Shown here: in pieces, positions 27,183-33,599 of the stretch | Layout of the letters: each line of letters opens with the position of its first letter | Position numbering within the stretch: position 1 is the stretch's first letter | DNA from: a virus | Virus record (IMG/VR): IMGVR_UViG_3300044858_004536 | Span: 1-34,811 of that record | Direction: 5' to 3' (one strand) | Length of the DNA: 34,811 nucleotides | The notes under the pieces: model-generated | Told to the model about the DNA's origin: nothing | Seen by the model: only the letters and a program-made list of their open reading frames with translations | Database searches by the model: none | Program-made: the position numbers and the translations under genes

Positions 27183-27989
27183 CTAGCCCTGCATAAGGCA
27201 GGGCGCCTGCGGGATGTCTGCGTGGATCTGCCTGTAGTCGAAGTAGTGCCTCTCGGCCATGCCTGGCGTTTTGTGCCCCAGATGCCTTCGGCCCATGCCT
27301 GGATGGGCGCACTCGATATGGGTCGCAGACGAGCGCCTCAGCCACTTACTGCTACCAGGCATGCCCATTTGCCCAAGCAGCTTCTTCATATGGCGCTGGG
27401 CCTGCTTCTTGCTGCACGCCCATGCCAGCACTGTCCCGTCTGGGGACTGCCGGATCAGGGACTGAACCTCTCGAACGCACTCCTCGCTGAGGACCTTCAC
27501 TATCGGCATGCCGGTCTTGTGCTGCGTCCACGAGACCGTGCCGCCGGAGAAGTTATCCTCCCGCAGCGACCACAGGTCTGAGAGCCTCGCGCCGGTCTCG
27601 TACCCCAGCAGCATCCAGGCCCGCAGCAGCACACCTATGTCCGCGCCGTTTTTCGTGCGCCTGAACTTTTTTTGGGAGGTAGCCTTGACAGCGGTACAGC
27701 ACTGTAATAAAGTCCACGCCCTCACTGGCTCACGGACGACCTTGATCCTGGCGATTCCTCGCGGCGGATCGTCGGTGATGCCAACCTCGAAAGCGAACTT
27801 CCAGAGGGTGGCGAGCATGTGCCTTTCGGCATCGACTGTTACTGTCTTGCAGGTCTTGAGTCGACGCTTGATGTACGCGTTGATCTCCTCCCTGCCGATG
27901 GACCCGCATCGCCTGGCCAGCCGCATGACGTTTCCGGCGTGACCCTCTGACACTATCCTGTTGGCCAAATAACGATTTGCTATGGACAC
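27183..27989 (-). CDS. int: Tyrosine-type site-specific integrase
   Basis: A 268-residue integrase if translation starts at the GTG at 27989; the open frame extends to 28163 but its extra N-terminus looks non-coding. The catalytic domain has R135 (GARLSDLW), K158 in a QHKTG beta-hairpin, R218 in KWLRRSSATH, H239 in HLGHKTPG and Y249 in ERHYFDY. The box II histidine is replaced by K215. It would integrate and excise the phage at an att site, so the phage is temperate. It is the only rightmost structural-end gene on the - strand, convergent with the giant virion gene and divergent from the recombination module. No excisionase was identified. Confidence 0.9.
   Translation of the reverse strand: MSIANRYLANRIVSEGHAGNVMRLARRCGSIGREEINAYIKRRLKTCKTVTVDAERHMLATLWKFAFEVGITDDPPRGIARIKVVREPVRAWTLLQCCTAVKATSQKKFRRTKNGADIGVLLRAWMLLGYETGARLSDLWSLREDNFSGGTVSWTQHKTGMPIVKVLSEECVREVQSLIRQSPDGTVLAWACSKKQAQRHMKKLLGQMGMPGSSKWLRRSSATHIECAHPGMGRRHLGHKTPGMAERHYFDYRQIHADIPQAPCLMQG
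27186..27204. repeat. Hairpin at the convergent gene ends
   Basis: GCCCTGC (27186-27192) and GCAGGGC (27198-27204) form a perfect 7-bp stem with a 5-nt loop, within the last codons of the integrase and right next to the stop of the structural block. There is no T run on either strand, so it is not a clear intrinsic terminator. It could weakly stop or stabilise converging transcripts, or be incidental. Confidence 0.35.
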
Positions 27990-29043
27990 AGCACTCAACA
28001 CAGTTGCACCTCTCGTCGGCCCTCCCAACTCTGGGGATTCTGTGGTTCGCCTAAGGGGGACGCAAGGGCCCGTGACCAACGGTGCCCACTCGAATCTTGG
28101 CGGTACTCCGGAGCAACCCGACCGCGACGAAAGTCTTTCCGTCGGGCTGCCCACAAGGAGCATGTACGCCCCCGTTCAGGATCAAAAAATCCCGGGAGTT
28201 TTGCAGGACCGTCCTTTCGTGGATGTTCGGCGCGGAGAGAGCAACGCCGACTATCACGCTGATGAAACGTACAGGTCAGTCAGCCGTATCAAGACCTTCT
28301 TGGACAGCCCGACCCTGTACCACTCCCGGTACATCGCCCGCACGCTCCCGCAGCAGAGCAGCCCTGCCATGGACCATGGCACGCTCCTCCATTCTTGGCT
28401 TGAGCGAGGGGACGCCCTCCTGGCCGACATAGCGGTTCCTCCGGAATCAACCCTAACAGGAACCGGGCTCGTTGGCAAAGAGGCCAAGAAGTGGGCCGCC
28501 GACAATTTCGGGCCAGACGCCGTCGTGGTGAGCCCTAAGGAGCGCGCCCAGCTGCACTTAGAGATCGAGTCGATTCGCCGAAACCCGGCCGCGATGGAGC
28601 TGATCGACGACATCCGGGAGCACGAGCTGTCTATCCGGTGGGAGACCCCAGACGGCCACCGACTCAAGTGCCGGGCCGACGCCGTCACGAGCAACTTCTT
28701 CATCGACCTCAAGACCACACGCGAGCCGGACGTTCGTGCCGGCTTTTGGAAGAGCGTGCTGGATTACCGGTATCACCTGCAGGACGCGTGGTACCGGCGC
28801 GGCATGGAAGCGCTGGGCATGGAGGCCCGGCCGCTGCGATTCATCGTTGTCTCGACGAGCCACTGGCACGACTGCCAGGTGGTCTACCTGCCGCAGCAAG
28901 TCATGGCTGAGGGCGAGCGCCTTATGGAGAAGGCCCTCGCCGACATTCGATTGCGTGAGCGACTGGACTGGTGGTTGCCGGACCAGCACGGAGAAGTCGC
29001 TGAACTTTGGTTTCCGGCGCACGTGTTAGGGAGGATGCAATGA
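27982..29043 (+). CDS. RecB/Cas4-like PD-(D/E)XK exonuclease
   Basis: A 353-residue open frame. The conserved part begins near residue 88 (NADYHADETYRSVSRIKTFL): GTLLH (133-137), KCRADAVT (229-236), IDLKTT (241-246, D242 and K244 as catalytic residues) and QDAWYRRG (267-274), matching the Gx3H ... D ... DxK ... QxxxY plan of RecB/Cas4-type nucleases. It would produce single-stranded ends for the ERF protein encoded next. The start is uncertain: 27982 has no ribosome site and overlaps the divergent integrase start, whereas in-frame ATG 28162 and GTG 28219 give a normal-length nuclease. It overlaps the ERF gene by 4 nt (ATGA). Confidence 0.85.
   Translation: MDTALNTVAPLVGPPNSGDSVVRLRGTQGPVTNGAHSNLGGTPEQPDRDESLSVGLPTRSMYAPVQDQKIPGVLQDRPFVDVRRGESNADYHADETYRSVSRIKTFLDSPTLYHSRYIARTLPQQSSPAMDHGTLLHSWLERGDALLADIAVPPESTLTGTGLVGKEAKKWAADNFGPDAVVVSPKERAQLHLEIESIRRNPAAMELIDDIREHELSIRWETPDGHRLKCRADAVTSNFFIDLKTTREPDVRAGFWKSVLDYRYHLQDAWYRRGMEALGMEARPLRFIVVSTSHWHDCQVVYLPQQVMAEGERLMEKALADIRLRERLDWWLPDQHGEVAELWFPAHVLGRMQ
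27990..28218. promoter_or_regulatory. Probable divergent control region and possible att region
   Basis: This stretch lies between the integrase start and the first well-conserved part of the exonuclease. It would normally carry the divergent promoters, and an att site often lies next to the integrase gene. It is less codon-regular than its neighbours and can be read as a long exonuclease N-terminus (start at 27982), so it is ambiguous. An imperfect inverted repeat (GACGAAAG / CTTTCCGTC) lies near 28127-28145. I see no certain -35/-10 pair or att core. Confidence 0.3.
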
Positions 29044-29720
29044 GCGTGAATACGTCTATCTGGAAGGAAACGAGCGATAACGTCGACGAGCTGTACGACG
29101 CGATGGCGAAGGCGTTCGGCGATCTGCGGAACGCCCCGAGAACCTGCTACAGCAACTGGGCGAAGAAGGACAAGAAGACCGGCGAGCTCGTGCCCGACTA
29201 CGCCGACCTGGCCACAGTGTTCGACACCGTTCGCTCCACCTACGCGAAGCACGGGCTGAGCATCCGCCAGACCTTCCACCCCTGGCAGAACGACGGCACG
29301 GTGATGCTGGTCACCACGATCGGACACAAGTCCGGCCAGTTCGAGAGGAGCTACCTTCCCATGAAGGGATCGGTGCCGCCTCAGGAACTGGCGAAGAGCG
29401 CCACCTACCTGAAGAGGGTGGCCTTGTGTGCCGCAGTTGGCATTGCCGCTGACGACGACGACGACGGCGTTCAGGCGAACTCGTCTCACGCTGTTGCGGT
29501 TGCCAACGACGAGGCCCGCATCGAGAAGGCGCTCGGCGACAAGATCCGCTCGGCGAAAGACGAGGCTTCTCGGAGGGCCGAGATTGACCGGGCCATGAAG
29601 GGCGTGTCGGAGGGGATGCTTTCTCCCAACGCCTGCGATCGCCTCAAGAAGCTTGCGGAGGACCTGGACGCCAAGCAGGCCGCAGCGCCCAAGAAAGAGC
29701 GGCAGGCAGTGGCCGGGTAA
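29040..29720 (+). CDS. erf: ERF-family single-strand annealing recombinase
   Basis: A 226-residue protein. The N-terminal 150 residues fit the ERF family: DELYDAMAKAFGDLRNAPRT, DYADLATVFDTVRSTYAKHG, IRQTFHPW, and a downstream strand-helix ending near KRVALCAAVGI. A poly-Asp stretch (DDDDDG, about 140-145) follows, then a charged C-terminal tail with coiled-coil character. ERF proteins anneal complementary single strands during phage recombination and circularisation; pairing with the exonuclease next door is the classic two-component system. ATG at 29040 has AGGGAGG upstream and overlaps the exonuclease stop by 4 nt. Confidence 0.88.
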   Translation: MSVNTSIWKETSDNVDELYDAMAKAFGDLRNAPRTCYSNWAKKDKKTGELVPDYADLATVFDTVRSTYAKHGLSIRQTFHPWQNDGTVMLVTTIGHKSGQFERSYLPMKGSVPPQELAKSATYLKRVALCAAVGIAADDDDDGVQANSSHAVAVANDEARIEKALGDKIRSAKDEASRRAEIDRAMKGVSEGMLSPNACDRLKKLAEDLDAKQAAAPKKERQAVAG

Positions 29721-29807: not shown

Positions 29808-30095
29808 ATGGTAAACGAAGAGCTAGTGAGCCTCTGCCGCACGGTCGTTGCGGCGATACAGGACACGGACAGCTTTGACGCACGGCAGCTGAGGCGGCTG
29901 ATCCTGCACATCGTGCCGCAGCTCCTCACAGAGCTCGACATCTTGGGCGGCGTGCTGGAGGGCATCCGCCTGCCTGACCCGCCGGCCATCCCTGAGGTGG
30001 TTGAGGGGCGCGTCGAGAAGGCCGCCAATGCGGCCGTCCGCTCTCGTCACCGGGCCAAGAAGCGCCCGGCCAGCAAGAAGGCGAGGAAGAAATGA
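29808..30095 (+). CDS. Small basic hypothetical protein
   Basis: A 95-residue protein. The first 70 residues are a likely helical domain (VNEELVSLCRTVVAAIQDTD, LRRLILHIVPQLLTELDILG), followed by a Lys/Arg-rich tail (RHRAKKRPASKKARKK) suited to nucleic acid binding. It lies in the recombination module between ERF and the helicase, which it overlaps by 4 nt, with a good AAGGA six bases before the start. It might be a single-strand DNA or helicase-loading accessory factor, but no family was recognised. The 87-nt gap before it holds no gene. Confidence 0.6.
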   Translation: MVNEELVSLCRTVVAAIQDTDSFDARQLRRLILHIVPQLLTELDILGGVLEGIRLPDPPAIPEVVEGRVEKAANAAVRSRHRAKKRPASKKARKK

Positions 30096-31624
30096 AGTCT
30101 GGGTTCCTTCGCGACTATCAGGTGCGTGCCGTCAGCGAGGTGTGCCAGGCCGCCAAGGGCGGTCACCGCCGGATCACGTTCTGCTTGCCGGTGGGTGCCG
30201 GCAAGACGGAGGTCATTGCAGAACTCTGCCGCATAGCCAGACACCCGCTCGTCATTGTTCCGCTGCTGGATCTCATGCGGCAGGCCCGAGATCGACTGGA
30301 GCTTCGGCTCGGCGAGAAGTGCGATATCGAGCAGGGCGCCATGAGGGCGGAGCATATCGAGGGACTCCGCCGGCGGGTTATCGTTGGCTCACGAGACAGC
30401 CTGCTCTCTCGCAGCCGGTATAGGGCGAAGGCGTATGACCGCGTGTCTCTCGTGCTGGTGGACGAGTGCCATGTCGGCATCACGCCACAGATGGAGGCCA
30501 TGCTCCTCCACTACGAGAGCCAGGGGGCGACCATCGTAGGCTGCTCGGCCACTCCATACAAGGGAAAGGGCAAGGGGCTGCCCTACTTCCCTCGCCCCCA
30601 GAGCGTCTACACGCTTCGCCAGGCGCTTGACGACGCCTACTTGGTGCCGCCTGTGTGCTTTACCAGCGAGTCTAAGGCCTTCGACATGACGCTCGTCGAC
30701 GAGGTGAGCGGCGAGTGGGACGGTCGGCAATTGGCTTCGATCCTGACCGCCGAGCACTACGCCCAAGAGGTGAAGTCGCTCGTTCTGCAGACCTTCCGGC
30801 AGCAGTCGTCCGTCGTTTACGCCGCAAATGTCAAGCAAGCACTGCTCCTGGCTGATGTGTTTGAGCGCGTCGGCACGAAGGTCTCTGTGGTCTACGGGTC
30901 CCAAAACCCAGAGAAGCGCAAGGCCAACATGCAGGCGTTCCTCTCGGGCGAGAGCAAGATCATCATAAACGTGGGCATCTTGGGCTACGGCTGGGACTTC
31001 CCAAATCTCCGCAATATCTACGCCGCCGCACCAACTCGGTCTCTGTCTCGGCTGGAGCAGCGCATCGGTCGCGGCACGAGGGCCCTGCCGGGCGTTCTGC
31101 ACCCCGAGATGAACTCAGGGGAGAGGCGGGCGGCCATCGCGGCCAGCGACAAGCCTCACTTCCACTACTACGACATCACGGGATCCATCCGCGAGCATCA
31201 GTTACTCAGCGTGTACGACGTTCTGGACGCGAAGGTGCGCAAGAACAAGGCCCGCCGGGAGAGGCTTGCCGGCTCCCTCTCGAGCGAGGGCACCGACGTT
31301 ATGGAGGCCATTCGCGAGGCAGACGCGGCCGAGATGGCCGAGCTGGAGGCCCAAGCAAAGGAACTGATCGAGCGACGGAAGAGGCTGATCGTCGGGGTCA
31401 CGTTTGACCACGACAGCCGCGACCCCTTCGCCGAGCCGGAGTCGCGCAAGAAGCGCGGCTGGAGGATGATGTATGGGCCCTACAGGGGCGAGAGAATAGA
31501 GGATCTGCCGAGCGGGTACCTCAAGCACGTATTCGAGACATCCCGCGCCAAGAGCGGTAAAGGCCTTGTGTTCCGCGATGCGGTCAAGAAGGAACTGGAC
31601 CGGAGGCACGCCCAGCCCAAATAG
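30092..31624 (+). CDS. SF2 DEAD/DEAH-type helicase
   Basis: A 510-residue helicase. Motif I PVGAGKT (33-39), motif II DECH (124-127), motif III SATP (152-155), the region around GYGWDFP (298-304, motif V-like) and motif VI QRIGRGTR (323-330) are all present, in the style of RecG-, UvsW- or type I restriction-like phage helicases. The C-terminal 120 residues contain a charged helical extension (IREADAAEMAELEAQAKELI). It would unwind or remodel DNA during phage replication or recombination. The ATG overlaps the previous stop as ATGA, with GAGGAAGAA just upstream. Helicase class is firm; substrate is inferred. Confidence 0.92.
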   Translation: MKSGFLRDYQVRAVSEVCQAAKGGHRRITFCLPVGAGKTEVIAELCRIARHPLVIVPLLDLMRQARDRLELRLGEKCDIEQGAMRAEHIEGLRRRVIVGSRDSLLSRSRYRAKAYDRVSLVLVDECHVGITPQMEAMLLHYESQGATIVGCSATPYKGKGKGLPYFPRPQSVYTLRQALDDAYLVPPVCFTSESKAFDMTLVDEVSGEWDGRQLASILTAEHYAQEVKSLVLQTFRQQSSVVYAANVKQALLLADVFERVGTKVSVVYGSQNPEKRKANMQAFLSGESKIIINVGILGYGWDFPNLRNIYAAAPTRSLSRLEQRIGRGTRALPGVLHPEMNSGERRAAIAASDKPHFHYYDITGSIREHQLLSVYDVLDAKVRKNKARRERLAGSLSSEGTDVMEAIREADAAEMAELEAQAKELIERRKRLIVGVTFDHDSRDPFAEPESRKKRGWRMMYGPYRGERIEDLPSGYLKHVFETSRAKSGKGLVFRDAVKKELDRRHAQPK

Positions 31625-31634
31625 GGAGGCATGG

Positions 31635-32030
31635 ATGCAGCATGGACGACTCGAAGGGAATGTCGTGGCGGAGATCGGGGTGGCCATCGCAGTGGAGCAC
31701 CTACTGCGGGCTGGCTTCCTGGTCGCCGTGCCTATTGTGGACGATGGATACGACCTTCTGGCCTTCTCAGGCAGGAGGTGCTGGCGACTTCAGGTCAAGG
31801 CCACCTCGATGGAAAGTGGACGCAGCCCCAGGGTGTGCGTTCGGCGTGGCGCCAGGAAGCGCATCGAGTACTCGGCCCGACACGTCGACGCATTCATCGG
31901 AGTACACGTTACTCGCAGATTGGTTGTCTGCGTTCCAGTCGCTTCGTGCAGGGGCAAGTCTTGGATTTACCTGCGGAAGCACGCTCACGGTGACTTTTCC
32001 AGCCTGCAGCGGATCAAGAGGAGGGCGTAG
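31635..32030 (+). CDS. PD-(D/E)XK nuclease, resolvase-like
   Basis: A 131-residue protein starting at 31635, where AGGGAGG ends 5 nt upstream (an out-of-frame ATG lies at 31631). The restriction-fold core is visible: a helix with VAEIGVAIAVEHLL including E13, then GYDLLAF with D40, and LQVKAT with Q53 and K55. Such small single-domain proteins include Holliday junction resolvases and PF11645-type endonucleases (family name recalled, not checked). It directly follows the helicase, which suggests a joint role in branched-DNA processing. It ends just before a 330-nt stretch without coding potential. Confidence 0.75.
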   Translation: MQHGRLEGNVVAEIGVAIAVEHLLRAGFLVAVPIVDDGYDLLAFSGRRCWRLQVKATSMESGRSPRVCVRRGARKRIEYSARHVDAFIGVHVTRRLVVCVPVASCRGKSWIYLRKHAHGDFSSLQRIKRRA

Positions 32031-32044
32031 GCGGGAGTAACGAA

Positions 32045-32305
32045 GCACAACACGAACGGCTGCGTGGGTTGGGAAAACCTCTGGCACGCAGACGCATGAC
32101 CCACGACCAGAAGGGATCGTGACGACAGTGGGTACGCCAGCCGCAAGCGACAGGGCTAAGTCACGCGGGCAACAGGATGCTCGATAAGCAGGTCGCATGC
32201 CTCCGCCCCTGTGGCAAGGAGGACACCCTCACAGCGTCCTAACGACCAGTGGGCAGGTGGCGGCTAACCCTGGCCTTCGGGCTGGGGATTAGTCGCCGTC
32301 CACCC
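32045..32305 (+). ncRNA. Candidate structured non-coding RNA, unknown class
   Basis: The 333 nt between 32031 and 32363 have no convincing open frame on either strand but are full of local structure. Examples: 32060-32091 (7-bp stem plus a 4-bp inner stem with GGGAA loop); 32118-32165 (CGTGAC/GTCACG stem around an inner AGCC/GGCT stem); 32178-32190; 32200-32222 (CCTCC-GCC/GGC-GGAGG hairpin); and 32256-32300, a 20-bp stem with one bulged A capped by a cUUCGg tetraloop. Five of its pairs are G-U in the + sense and would be A-C mismatches on the other strand, so the + strand is the transcribed one. It lies between a nuclease gene and small early genes and could be a stand-alone RNA, a long leader or a regulatory element. 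I do not recognise the class. Confidence 0.65.
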
Positions 32306-32363
32306 CGAGCGAGCCTTCAACCAATGGGCAGATCACTTACTACCGACTTTGGAGACCACTGCG

Positions 32364-32636
32364 ATGGAACGCATGGATGAACTTTCTCTGCTGCGCGTGA
32401 CTGATTCTTCGGGCGCCCAGATGGTGGTTGCGTGCGTGCCCGAGTCCGGCTCTGAGTTTGTCTCTGTGGGGGAGCCAGACTCCTGGACCGAGCATTGCCG
32501 TCCGGTCACGAGCGTGCTGATTGACACTACCAGGATCCTTCAGCTGACGAGCCCTTCGGACGTGGCGTCGCTGGCTGCGTGGCTGAGCGCTGCCGCCGTG
32601 TGGCTGAGAGAAAAGGAGTTGATGAACGATGACTGA
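32364..32636 (+). CDS. Small hypothetical protein after the structured RNA
   Basis: A 90-residue protein. Its ATG at 32364 has GGAG at 32351-32354, nine bases upstream; further in-frame starts (TTG 32349, ATG 32373) are less likely or equally short. The protein has a beta-rich first part (LRVTDSSGAQMVVACVPESG), a likely helix (SDVASLAAWLSAAAVWLREK) and ends with a charged tail. No family was recognised. It is the first gene after the structured RNA, so its expression could be controlled by it. It overlaps the next gene by 8 nt. Confidence 0.6.
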   Translation: MERMDELSLLRVTDSSGAQMVVACVPESGSEFVSVGEPDSWTEHCRPVTSVLIDTTRILQLTSPSDVASLAAWLSAAAVWLREKELMNDD

Positions 32637-32904
32637 CCCCCAGAAAGGAGTCCTGGCCATGGCTGGATTTATTGGTACCGCGCTGAGTGCCCTGTTTCGG
32701 GAGAACGAGGACATCGTGGCCCACGCCAAGATCGTCGCCGGCCAGGCCGCATGCCGCGTTCATCACCGAGAGGAAGTGACAAACCTCATGACCGGAGAGA
32801 AGCGGGTTGTGTGGCAGATCGAGTTCCCCACTCAGGAGGACGCCTCCCAGTTCGACTCGTCTGTCCGCGAGCTGGTTCGCATCATTGTTGAGGAGGGCGA
32901 ATGA
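32629..32904 (+). CDS. Small hypothetical protein
   Basis: A 91-residue protein with AAGGAG about 10 nt before its ATG. It has an N-terminal hydrophobic helix (VLAMAGFIGTALSALF), then a mixed alpha/beta segment (KRVVWQIEFPTQEDASQFDS) and a final helix (VRELVRIIVEE). The hydrophobic stretch might be a membrane anchor or a buried helix. It overlaps both neighbours slightly. Function unknown. Confidence 0.55.
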   Translation: MTDPQKGVLAMAGFIGTALSALFRENEDIVAHAKIVAGQAACRVHHREEVTNLMTGEKRVVWQIEFPTQEDASQFDSSVRELVRIIVEEGE

Positions 32905-33599
32905 ATGGCCGCCAGGAACTATCGCTGTTCGCAGAGGCATTCGGGTGGTGCGCCGTGTGCTGGACCCGCGCGCACGCGCTGCACATCCACCACTTGCAGC
33001 AGGGGTCAGGGCGGAAGCACGACCGCCGGAACCTCTTGCGGCTCTGCATGTACTGCCACGAGTGGCTGCACTCGGGTGGCAAATACAACCTGCGAAAGGG
33101 CCACTGCCTCACCGCCAAGCGGGAATGCGACTCGGCCAATTACGACCCTGAGTATCTGGCTGCGCTCCGTCTCAAGAAGCATCTGGGCTACGGCCCTGAG
33201 CCTCTGCCTGACTGGGCGCTGTACTGGCGTCAACGGAACGGAATCCCACCGGAGCTGATAGTCATGCCCATCAACAGCAGGCGAAAAGGAAAGGTCGGCG
33301 AGCTGGAGGCGGCGGCCGAAATCAACCGTCTTCTTCCAGGGGCGCACGCCCGCCGGTCGCAGCAGCACAGCGGGACCGAGAGCGCGTCGGATCTCATCGC
33401 TCCCGGCCTGCCGAACCTGTGGCTTGAGGTCAAGCGCGTTCAGGCACTCAACATCCAGGCCGTGATGGAGAAATCCCTGGAGCAGTGCGGGGAGCTGGCG
33501 CCCGTGATTGTTCACCGCCGGAACGACTCGCCCTGGCTTGTGACGTTTCGGCTCGAGGACATCATCCGCGTGGCGGCGCAGATTCAAGGAGCAGCGTAA
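32901..33599 (+). CDS. HNH-type and PD-(D/E)XK fusion nuclease
   Basis: A 232-residue protein with two nuclease-like modules. Residues 1-60 form an HNH/zinc module: C17-x2-C20, HIHH at 28-31 and C49-x2-C52 with H53 and H57. Residues about 123-232 form a PD-(D/E)XK domain: INSRRKGKVGELEAAAEINR with E134, a QQHSGTESASDLI segment with D164, and LEVKRV with E177 and K179. The C-terminal half is a common stand-alone phage protein (resolvase-like), while here it is joined to the HNH part through a linker with WYWRQRNG-type residues. M122 (nt 33264) has GGAG nine bases upstream, so the C-terminal nuclease might also be made alone. It overlaps its neighbours at both ends. Confidence 0.8.
   Translation: MNGRQELSLFAEAFGWCAVCWTRAHALHIHHLQQGSGRKHDRRNLLRLCMYCHEWLHSGGKYNLRKGHCLTAKRECDSANYDPEYLAALRLKKHLGYGPEPLPDWALYWRQRNGIPPELIVMPINSRRKGKVGELEAAAEINRLLPGAHARRSQQHSGTESASDLIAPGLPNLWLEVKRVQALNIQAVMEKSLEQCGELAPVIVHRRNDSPWLVTFRLEDIIRVAAQIQGAA

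Follow-up and report, generated by a model that had tools for sequence, protein, structure and literature searches.

The window analysed here, that is, the whole stretch of DNA under study, comprises 34,811 nt (34.8 kb) of the record IMGVR_UViG_3300044858_004536 from an uncultured virus and has a G+C content of 64%. Head and tail proteins are encoded in its first part, and a recombination module is located at its right end. In this module, all on the + strand, genes for an exonuclease VIII-like protein (27982-29043) and Erf (29007-29720) precede that of an SF2 DNA helicase (30092-31624), followed by a 132-aa ORF (31642-32040), a gap (32041-32363), a 90-aa ORF of unknown function that is absent from some relatives (32364-32636), and a gene for an HNH nuclease fused to a Holliday-junction-resolvase-like domain (32901-33599). 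Two small unknown ORFs in all separate the gap from the HNH gene. The 132-aa ORF is named a small PD-(D/E)XK nuclease-like protein after its homologue in a relative, which passes the cut-off of PF11645 (PDDEXK_5). We also noticed that a 95-aa ORF just 5' of the helicase (29808-30095) contains a conserved stretch of 53 residues (70% identity in L005-L007) that aligns in relatives, while its remainder does not. No match to the terminase of the window was found among 50,697 phage records searched for isolate relatives, the host is unknown, and the helicase matches isolate phages only below 60% identity.

The gap holds an RNA element embedded in this early/recombination operon. A first-pass annotation, made from the sequence alone, had claimed a gene-free stretch here and read it as a structured, + strand non-coding RNA of unknown class, with a 20-bp stem capped by a cUUCGg tetraloop as its best hairpin. 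The gene-free stretch held, the stop codon of the upstream ORF being at 32040 and the next ATG at 32364 (with an in-frame TTG at 32349). The stem and tetraloop held as well: the hairpin at 32256-32304 folds as described, with -34.4 kcal/mol and z = -6.0 against shuffled sequences (-24.1 kcal/mol for the opposite strand). The claim of one bulge and five G-U pairs held only in part, as the fold of lowest energy contains four G-U pairs and two bulges of one base each. The folding energy of the whole 333-nt stretch is unremarkable (z = -0.81 on the + strand and +0.45 on the - strand). Since the whole stretch folds no better than its shuffles, energy alone is no proof of an RNA and comparative evidence is needed. 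The cUUCGg loop is not conserved, with other loops present in the homologues L025, L043, and L048.

A first search with the helicase as lead identified seven related loci, in three of which identity is 81% across 281 nt of the gap, compared with about 70-72% for the flanking coding DNA. Exact-pattern scans of IMG/VR and a profile search provided further homologues, for 24 distinct sequences in IMG/VR contigs besides the window, most of them 74-97% identical (blastn down to 74%); that of L063 was recovered by profile. The profile match delimits a conserved element of about 287 nt (32047-32333, + strand), which is present in dozens of IMG/VR contigs of related phages. Its conservation begins a few nucleotides after the upstream stop codon and ends at the repeat R2 described below, abruptly on both sides. 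The element has no match in isolate phages, and a blastn search of plasmids (E up to 1) was likewise empty. Three pattern hits from bacterial genomes were rejected, as they fail to match the element profile. Of the rejected hits, L059-L061 do not fit the profile, and L035 and L018 reflect chance similarity in unrelated sequence that looks coding.

A search of Rfam 15 at the gathering cut-off gave no hit in the window or in six related loci, only chance hits appeared when it was loosened to E up to 10, and ARAGORN found no tRNA or tmRNA gene in the window. A hidden protein was also rejected, as no frame is conserved, stops occur in all frames, and indels do not come in threes; no sign of a decayed gene was seen. 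None of the tests made supports an ordinary explanation, be it a decayed gene, a chance hairpin, or a known RNA.

The region 32047-32333 is a conserved, double-pseudoknotted RNA encoded on the + strand. RNAalifold gave 68 pairs, 20 of them with two-sided changes, and two pseudoknots beyond this fold were added by reading the alignment. The 12-helix fold including both pseudoknots is paired in 97.7% of 1580 alignment cells, compared with 32-40% when the partner is slid by 1-3 columns. Two-sided changes occur at 23 pairs, against 3-8 for slid and 9.2 for shuffled controls. Mapped on the tree, 30 compensatory changes alter both partners of a pair within one branch; slid pairs give 0-3, and a null in which substitutions were shuffled within branches gives a mean of 1.9 and a maximum of 7 in 200 runs. 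The criterion for a structured non-coding RNA, namely compensatory changes beyond a phylogenetic null, is met. These tree tests relied on home-made scripts, not on R-scape. Taken singly, no pairing columns reach E < 0.05 with 25 sequences, so the strength of the covariation resides at the level of the helix and of the whole structure. The + strand is fixed by the stronger fold on that strand and by G-U-mediated changes.

The first-pass annotation had proposed covariation in homologues as a test of its reading; with that test run and compensatory changes found to be strong, the structured RNA of unknown class on the + strand is supported. Its statement that the stretch matches no known class (not a tRNA or tmRNA) held in Rfam and ARAGORN, and none of the outcomes it had named as refuting (conserved reading frame, decayed gene, known family) applies. 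That annotation had noticed neither the pseudoknots (two) nor the direct repeats that co-vary. As the element sits in an operon a few nucleotides past the upstream stop, it is not shown to be a separate small-RNA gene with a promoter of its own.

All helices are given on the + strand. Helix P1 (32060-32091), formed by CUGCGUG/CACGCAG with an inner GGUU/AACC, is paired in 97% of cells with two-sided changes at four of seven pairs. Pseudoknot a (P2) joins CCCAC (32100-32104) to GUGGG (32128-32132); it is 95% paired and undergoes an A-U to G-C change in 10 of 24 sequences. It interleaves with P3, in which CGUGAC (32118-32123) pairs with GUCACG (32160-32165) in 100% of cells, five of the six pairs having two-sided changes. 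P4 (32135-32138 with 32154-32157, spanning 32135-32157) has two-sided changes at two of four pairs, and its outer pair is C/U in the window itself. Its loop holds an invariant G-N-A-A segment as well as the GCGAC (32147-32151) that forms pseudoknot b with GUCGC (32192-32196); this helix is 100% paired and becomes GAGUC/GACUC in L053 and GAGAC/GUCUC in L063. Three hairpins follow: P5 (32166-32183; CGGGCA/UGCUCG), 99% paired with two-sided changes at two pairs; P6 (32200-32222; CCUCC GCC / GGC GGAGG), 94% paired with two-sided changes at four; and P7 (32236-32254; GUCC/GGGC), 99% paired with one-sided changes only. P8 is the 20-bp stem at 32256-32304, in which two pairs show two-sided changes and the others are invariant. 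The weakest helix is P9, in which GAAGG (32110-32114) would pair with CCUUC (32314-32318) and close the 3' domain; it is invariant, so it has no covariation support and remains a possible suggestion only. As a side observation, T-loop-like strings start both repeats described below (AACGANC, 32239-32248; UUCAANC, 32314-32324), and the P1 loop at 32067-32079 (GGUUGGGA) resembles a tRNA D-loop; tertiary contacts between such elements are conceivable.

The strongest signal in an unbiased scan of all alignment column pairs was not a base pair. It links two 16-nt direct repeats on the + strand, R1 (CGACCAGUGGGCAGGU, 32243-32258) and R2 (CAACCAAUGGGCAGAU, 32318-32333). R1 is displayed by P7 in its 11-nt loop and 3' strand, R2 forms the 3' end of the element, and P8 is located between them. 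The distance from R1 to R2 is 75 nt in the window and nearly constant across homologues (72-76 nt). At the central base, columns 32246 and 32321 agree in all 25 sequences (A in 11, G in 9, C in 3, and U in 2), and this co-variation exceeds all 100 maxima of a tree-based null. Ten joint identical changes of R1 and R2 are placed on the tree, five of them at the central base, and in L063 the same single base is deleted from both repeats. R1 and R2 evolve as a matched pair.

The differences that remain between the repeats run one way. Over the core from -1 to +9 (275 cells), 233 cells are identical and 42 differ, 41 of these being R1 G/R2 A and one R1 U/R2 C; the reverse differences (R1 A/R2 G, R1 C/R2 U) and transversions are absent. 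Because of this one-way character, all 275 core cells allow a Watson-Crick or wobble pair between R1 RNA and the complement of R2. The converse fails, as R2 is often unable to pair with the complement of R1. The pattern supports a direction, from R1 RNA to the complement of R2, without proving it, since the cells depend on one another and pairing in P7 constrains some of the R1 Gs. The column-pair scan revealed no partner strand inside the RNA that co-varies with R1 or R2, and no further close copies of the repeat were found in the window. Other accounts of the repeats were rejected: a third strand pairing with both has no recurrent site in the flanks or in the relatives' loci, target-site duplication by a mobile P8 hairpin conflicts with joint changes that arose after the element was in place, and translational bypass, in which take-off and landing repeats would flank a hairpin, lacks a reading frame that enters R1. 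Co-varying identical repeats with one-way wobble differences were not found in the RNA families compared here.

Across relatives, the gene upstream of the RNA varies: it can be the PD-(D/E)XK nuclease, but in L037 and L039 the helicase comes immediately before the RNA, and in L020, L048, and L051 unrelated ORFs do. The HNH gene is found downstream of the RNA in every context with enough sequence and is the only neighbour common to all. The HNH and Holliday-junction-resolvase-like domains are fused in the window and its close relatives and are separate genes in distant ones, where other genes intervene (L048, L020, and L051 examined). Early ORFs in the records of L007, L020, and L048 match sigma-70 region 2/4, a Lar-like restriction alleviation protein, and subtilase; it may be inferred from these domain matches that such phages have their own transcription control and anti-restriction.

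The sister phages L002, L003, L004, and L008 do not carry this RNA. The same slot in L003/L004 and L008 is occupied by a different conserved non-coding sequence with compensatory changes of its own, a second structured RNA candidate (L004:6936-7172, L008:4810-5050; also L003). When two of the sequences are compared, both partners differ in 11 of the 52 pairs predicted for it, some of these lying in consecutive runs. It has no Rfam match and no R1/R2-like repeats. A third version of the slot is seen in L002 (L002:6935-7170), the first 80 nt of which are 90% identical to L004/L008; unrelated sequence follows, with a hairpin of 10 bp that may form and a 154-aa ORF as an addition.

Among known systems, GOLLD, ROOL, and OLE are likewise RNAs from phages or bacteria that are defined by covariation, fold elaborately, and have no known role (PMC12286853). 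The phage element is smaller, carries co-varying direct repeats, and matches neither these family models nor any other in Rfam; GOLLD and ROOL are often near tRNA islands, whereas the window has no tRNA genes. Group I introns with a PDDEXK_5 homing endonuclease share interleaved helices and a related upstream ORF family, PF11645 being known to include an intron-encoded endonuclease. A group I intron was nevertheless rejected, as the fold has no P4-P6 domain, the element interrupts no gene, and Intron_gpI gives no match even at E = 10.

How the matched repeats act can only be inferred. By analogy with ColE1 RNA II, the R1 loop may hybridise with the template DNA at R2 and form an R-loop primer; we hold this reading tentatively, with the odds against it (probability about 0.3). 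R1 would be the guide and the DNA at R2 its cis target. As RNA polymerase passes R2, the folded upstream domain would present the R1 loop to the template strand 75 nt downstream, where R1 would hybridise with rG-dT and rU-dG wobbles tolerated, P7 would open, and a stable R-loop would form. The template strand was chosen because it is always beside the nascent RNA and is complementary to R2, and R2's own template strand fits as the target because no third strand recurs near the RNA in relatives. It is a further inference that the R-loop would prime or open a phage replication origin, with host RNase H and polymerase acting first on the hybrid, as with ColE1 RNA II or T4 R-loop origins.

The stable R-loop of ColE1 requires that an rG stretch in the RNA pairs with a dC stretch in the template strand (PMC4412123), and replication proceeds without an initiator protein (PMC5043065). 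Like ColE1/pMB1 RNA II, the phage element is a structured non-coding RNA transcribed toward the site in question, and host machinery is presumed for the phage; that it too would do without an initiator rests only on the partial scan of relatives' early ORFs given below. The two differ in that the phage RNA has 287 nt and two pseudoknots compared with about 550 nt, is part of an operon, and carries co-evolving repeats 75 nt apart, and its priming is only inferred. There is no sequence similarity between them, and descent from plasmid RNA II has no sequence match to support it (blastn, E up to 1). T4 also initiates replication from R-loops formed at a transcript, at oriF and oriG (PMC4412123). 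T4 encodes its own polymerase and primase and is not known to need a comparable structured RNA.

The early genes of the module and its relatives encode exonuclease, Erf, helicase, SSB, HNH, and resolvase. In the early ORFs scanned in three relatives (partial regions), Pfam recognised no polymerase, primase, DnaB, or initiator, and DNA_pol_A is absent from the records of eight relatives. The apparent lack of replication genes may reflect unrecognised divergent genes, as the family searches covered only partial early regions. Several points weigh against the R-loop model. No transcript, R-loop, or origin has been observed so far, the 16-nt hybrid is short and requires P7 to open, and the pairing constraint of P7 on R1 Gs could explain part of the G>A pattern. 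No promoter-like site precedes the element, and GC skew, which shows no clear origin at the element, is uninformative.

We favour R-loop priming over four other explanations. The element could be a non-coding RNA or RNP in its own right, excised from the transcript of the early operon, that works in trans in host take-over, in anti-defence, or as a scaffold; R1 and R2 would then be duplicates of a single binding site, recognised by a protein or trans RNA that varies between phages. This is possible, and it is supported by a complexity like that of other phage RNAs of unknown role, by the position a few nucleotides past the stop codons of variable upstream genes, and by the unrelated structured RNA in the same slot of sister phages, which resembles exchangeable cargo. 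However, symmetric sites should also give R1 A/R2 G, which accounts for 0 of 42 differences, four letters at the central base demand a protein of changing specificity, and no partner gene except HNH is strictly linked. A cis regulator of downstream genes (riboswitch, attenuator, antiterminator), in which R1 and R2 compete for one strand, would suit the leader-like place before a gene in every context, but appears unlikely: the 3' end of the element has no terminator, the downstream gene varies among phages, no internal partner strand co-varies with either repeat, and no riboswitch is matched.

RNA-guided DNA recognition, in which R1 would guide an RNP, perhaps one that includes the HNH nuclease, and R2 would be a target or self-copy at the edge, also seems improbable. 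It would account for the HNH gene as sole common downstream neighbour (immediately after the RNA in L048), for R1 equalling R2 as a guide does its protospacer, and for one-way, wobble-tolerant differences, and the element resembles HEARO/OMEGA RNAs with HNH-containing IscB in being a structured RNA with a guide-like segment beside an HNH gene. However, in the small HNH protein no part of RuvC or TnpB/IscB type was found, no transposon ends were seen, cleavage of its own genome would harm the phage, and the window yielded no further close copies of the repeat. An OMEGA (IscB/TnpB) RNA as such was rejected, as the neighbour has only an HNH and a resolvase-like domain and there is no HEARO match in Rfam. 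There is similarly little to recommend a DNA-level element, in which an origin or recombination site would be superimposed on the RNA structure and proteins would bind R1 and R2 as its iterons. Direct repeats at a nearly constant spacing of 72-76 nt in a recombination module speak for it, but the one-way wobble differences indicate RNA pairing, only two copies exist, and the remainder of the element is clearly RNA-constrained.

The element represents a compact phage RNA class with two pseudoknots that neither Rfam nor the records of isolate phages contain; sister phages have a second structured RNA candidate in its place. Co-variation of the kind seen between R1 and R2, by identity and not by complementarity, is overlooked by the usual base-pair covariation tests and could expose other self-addressing RNAs. 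In a bolder reading, which we find attractive but would not yet bet on, the element belongs to an undescribed class of phage RNA whose internal guide, R1, is evolutionarily matched to flanking DNA, R2, so that the RNA would address the template strand of its own gene; the outcome would be either an initiator-free, RNA-primed origin of new architecture or an RNA-guided DNA recognition unrelated to CRISPR/OMEGA. How replication starts in phages without recognisable polymerase, primase, or initiator genes is an open question. If R1-R2 pairing does nucleate an R-loop, this would be directly testable by altering one repeat and then the other.
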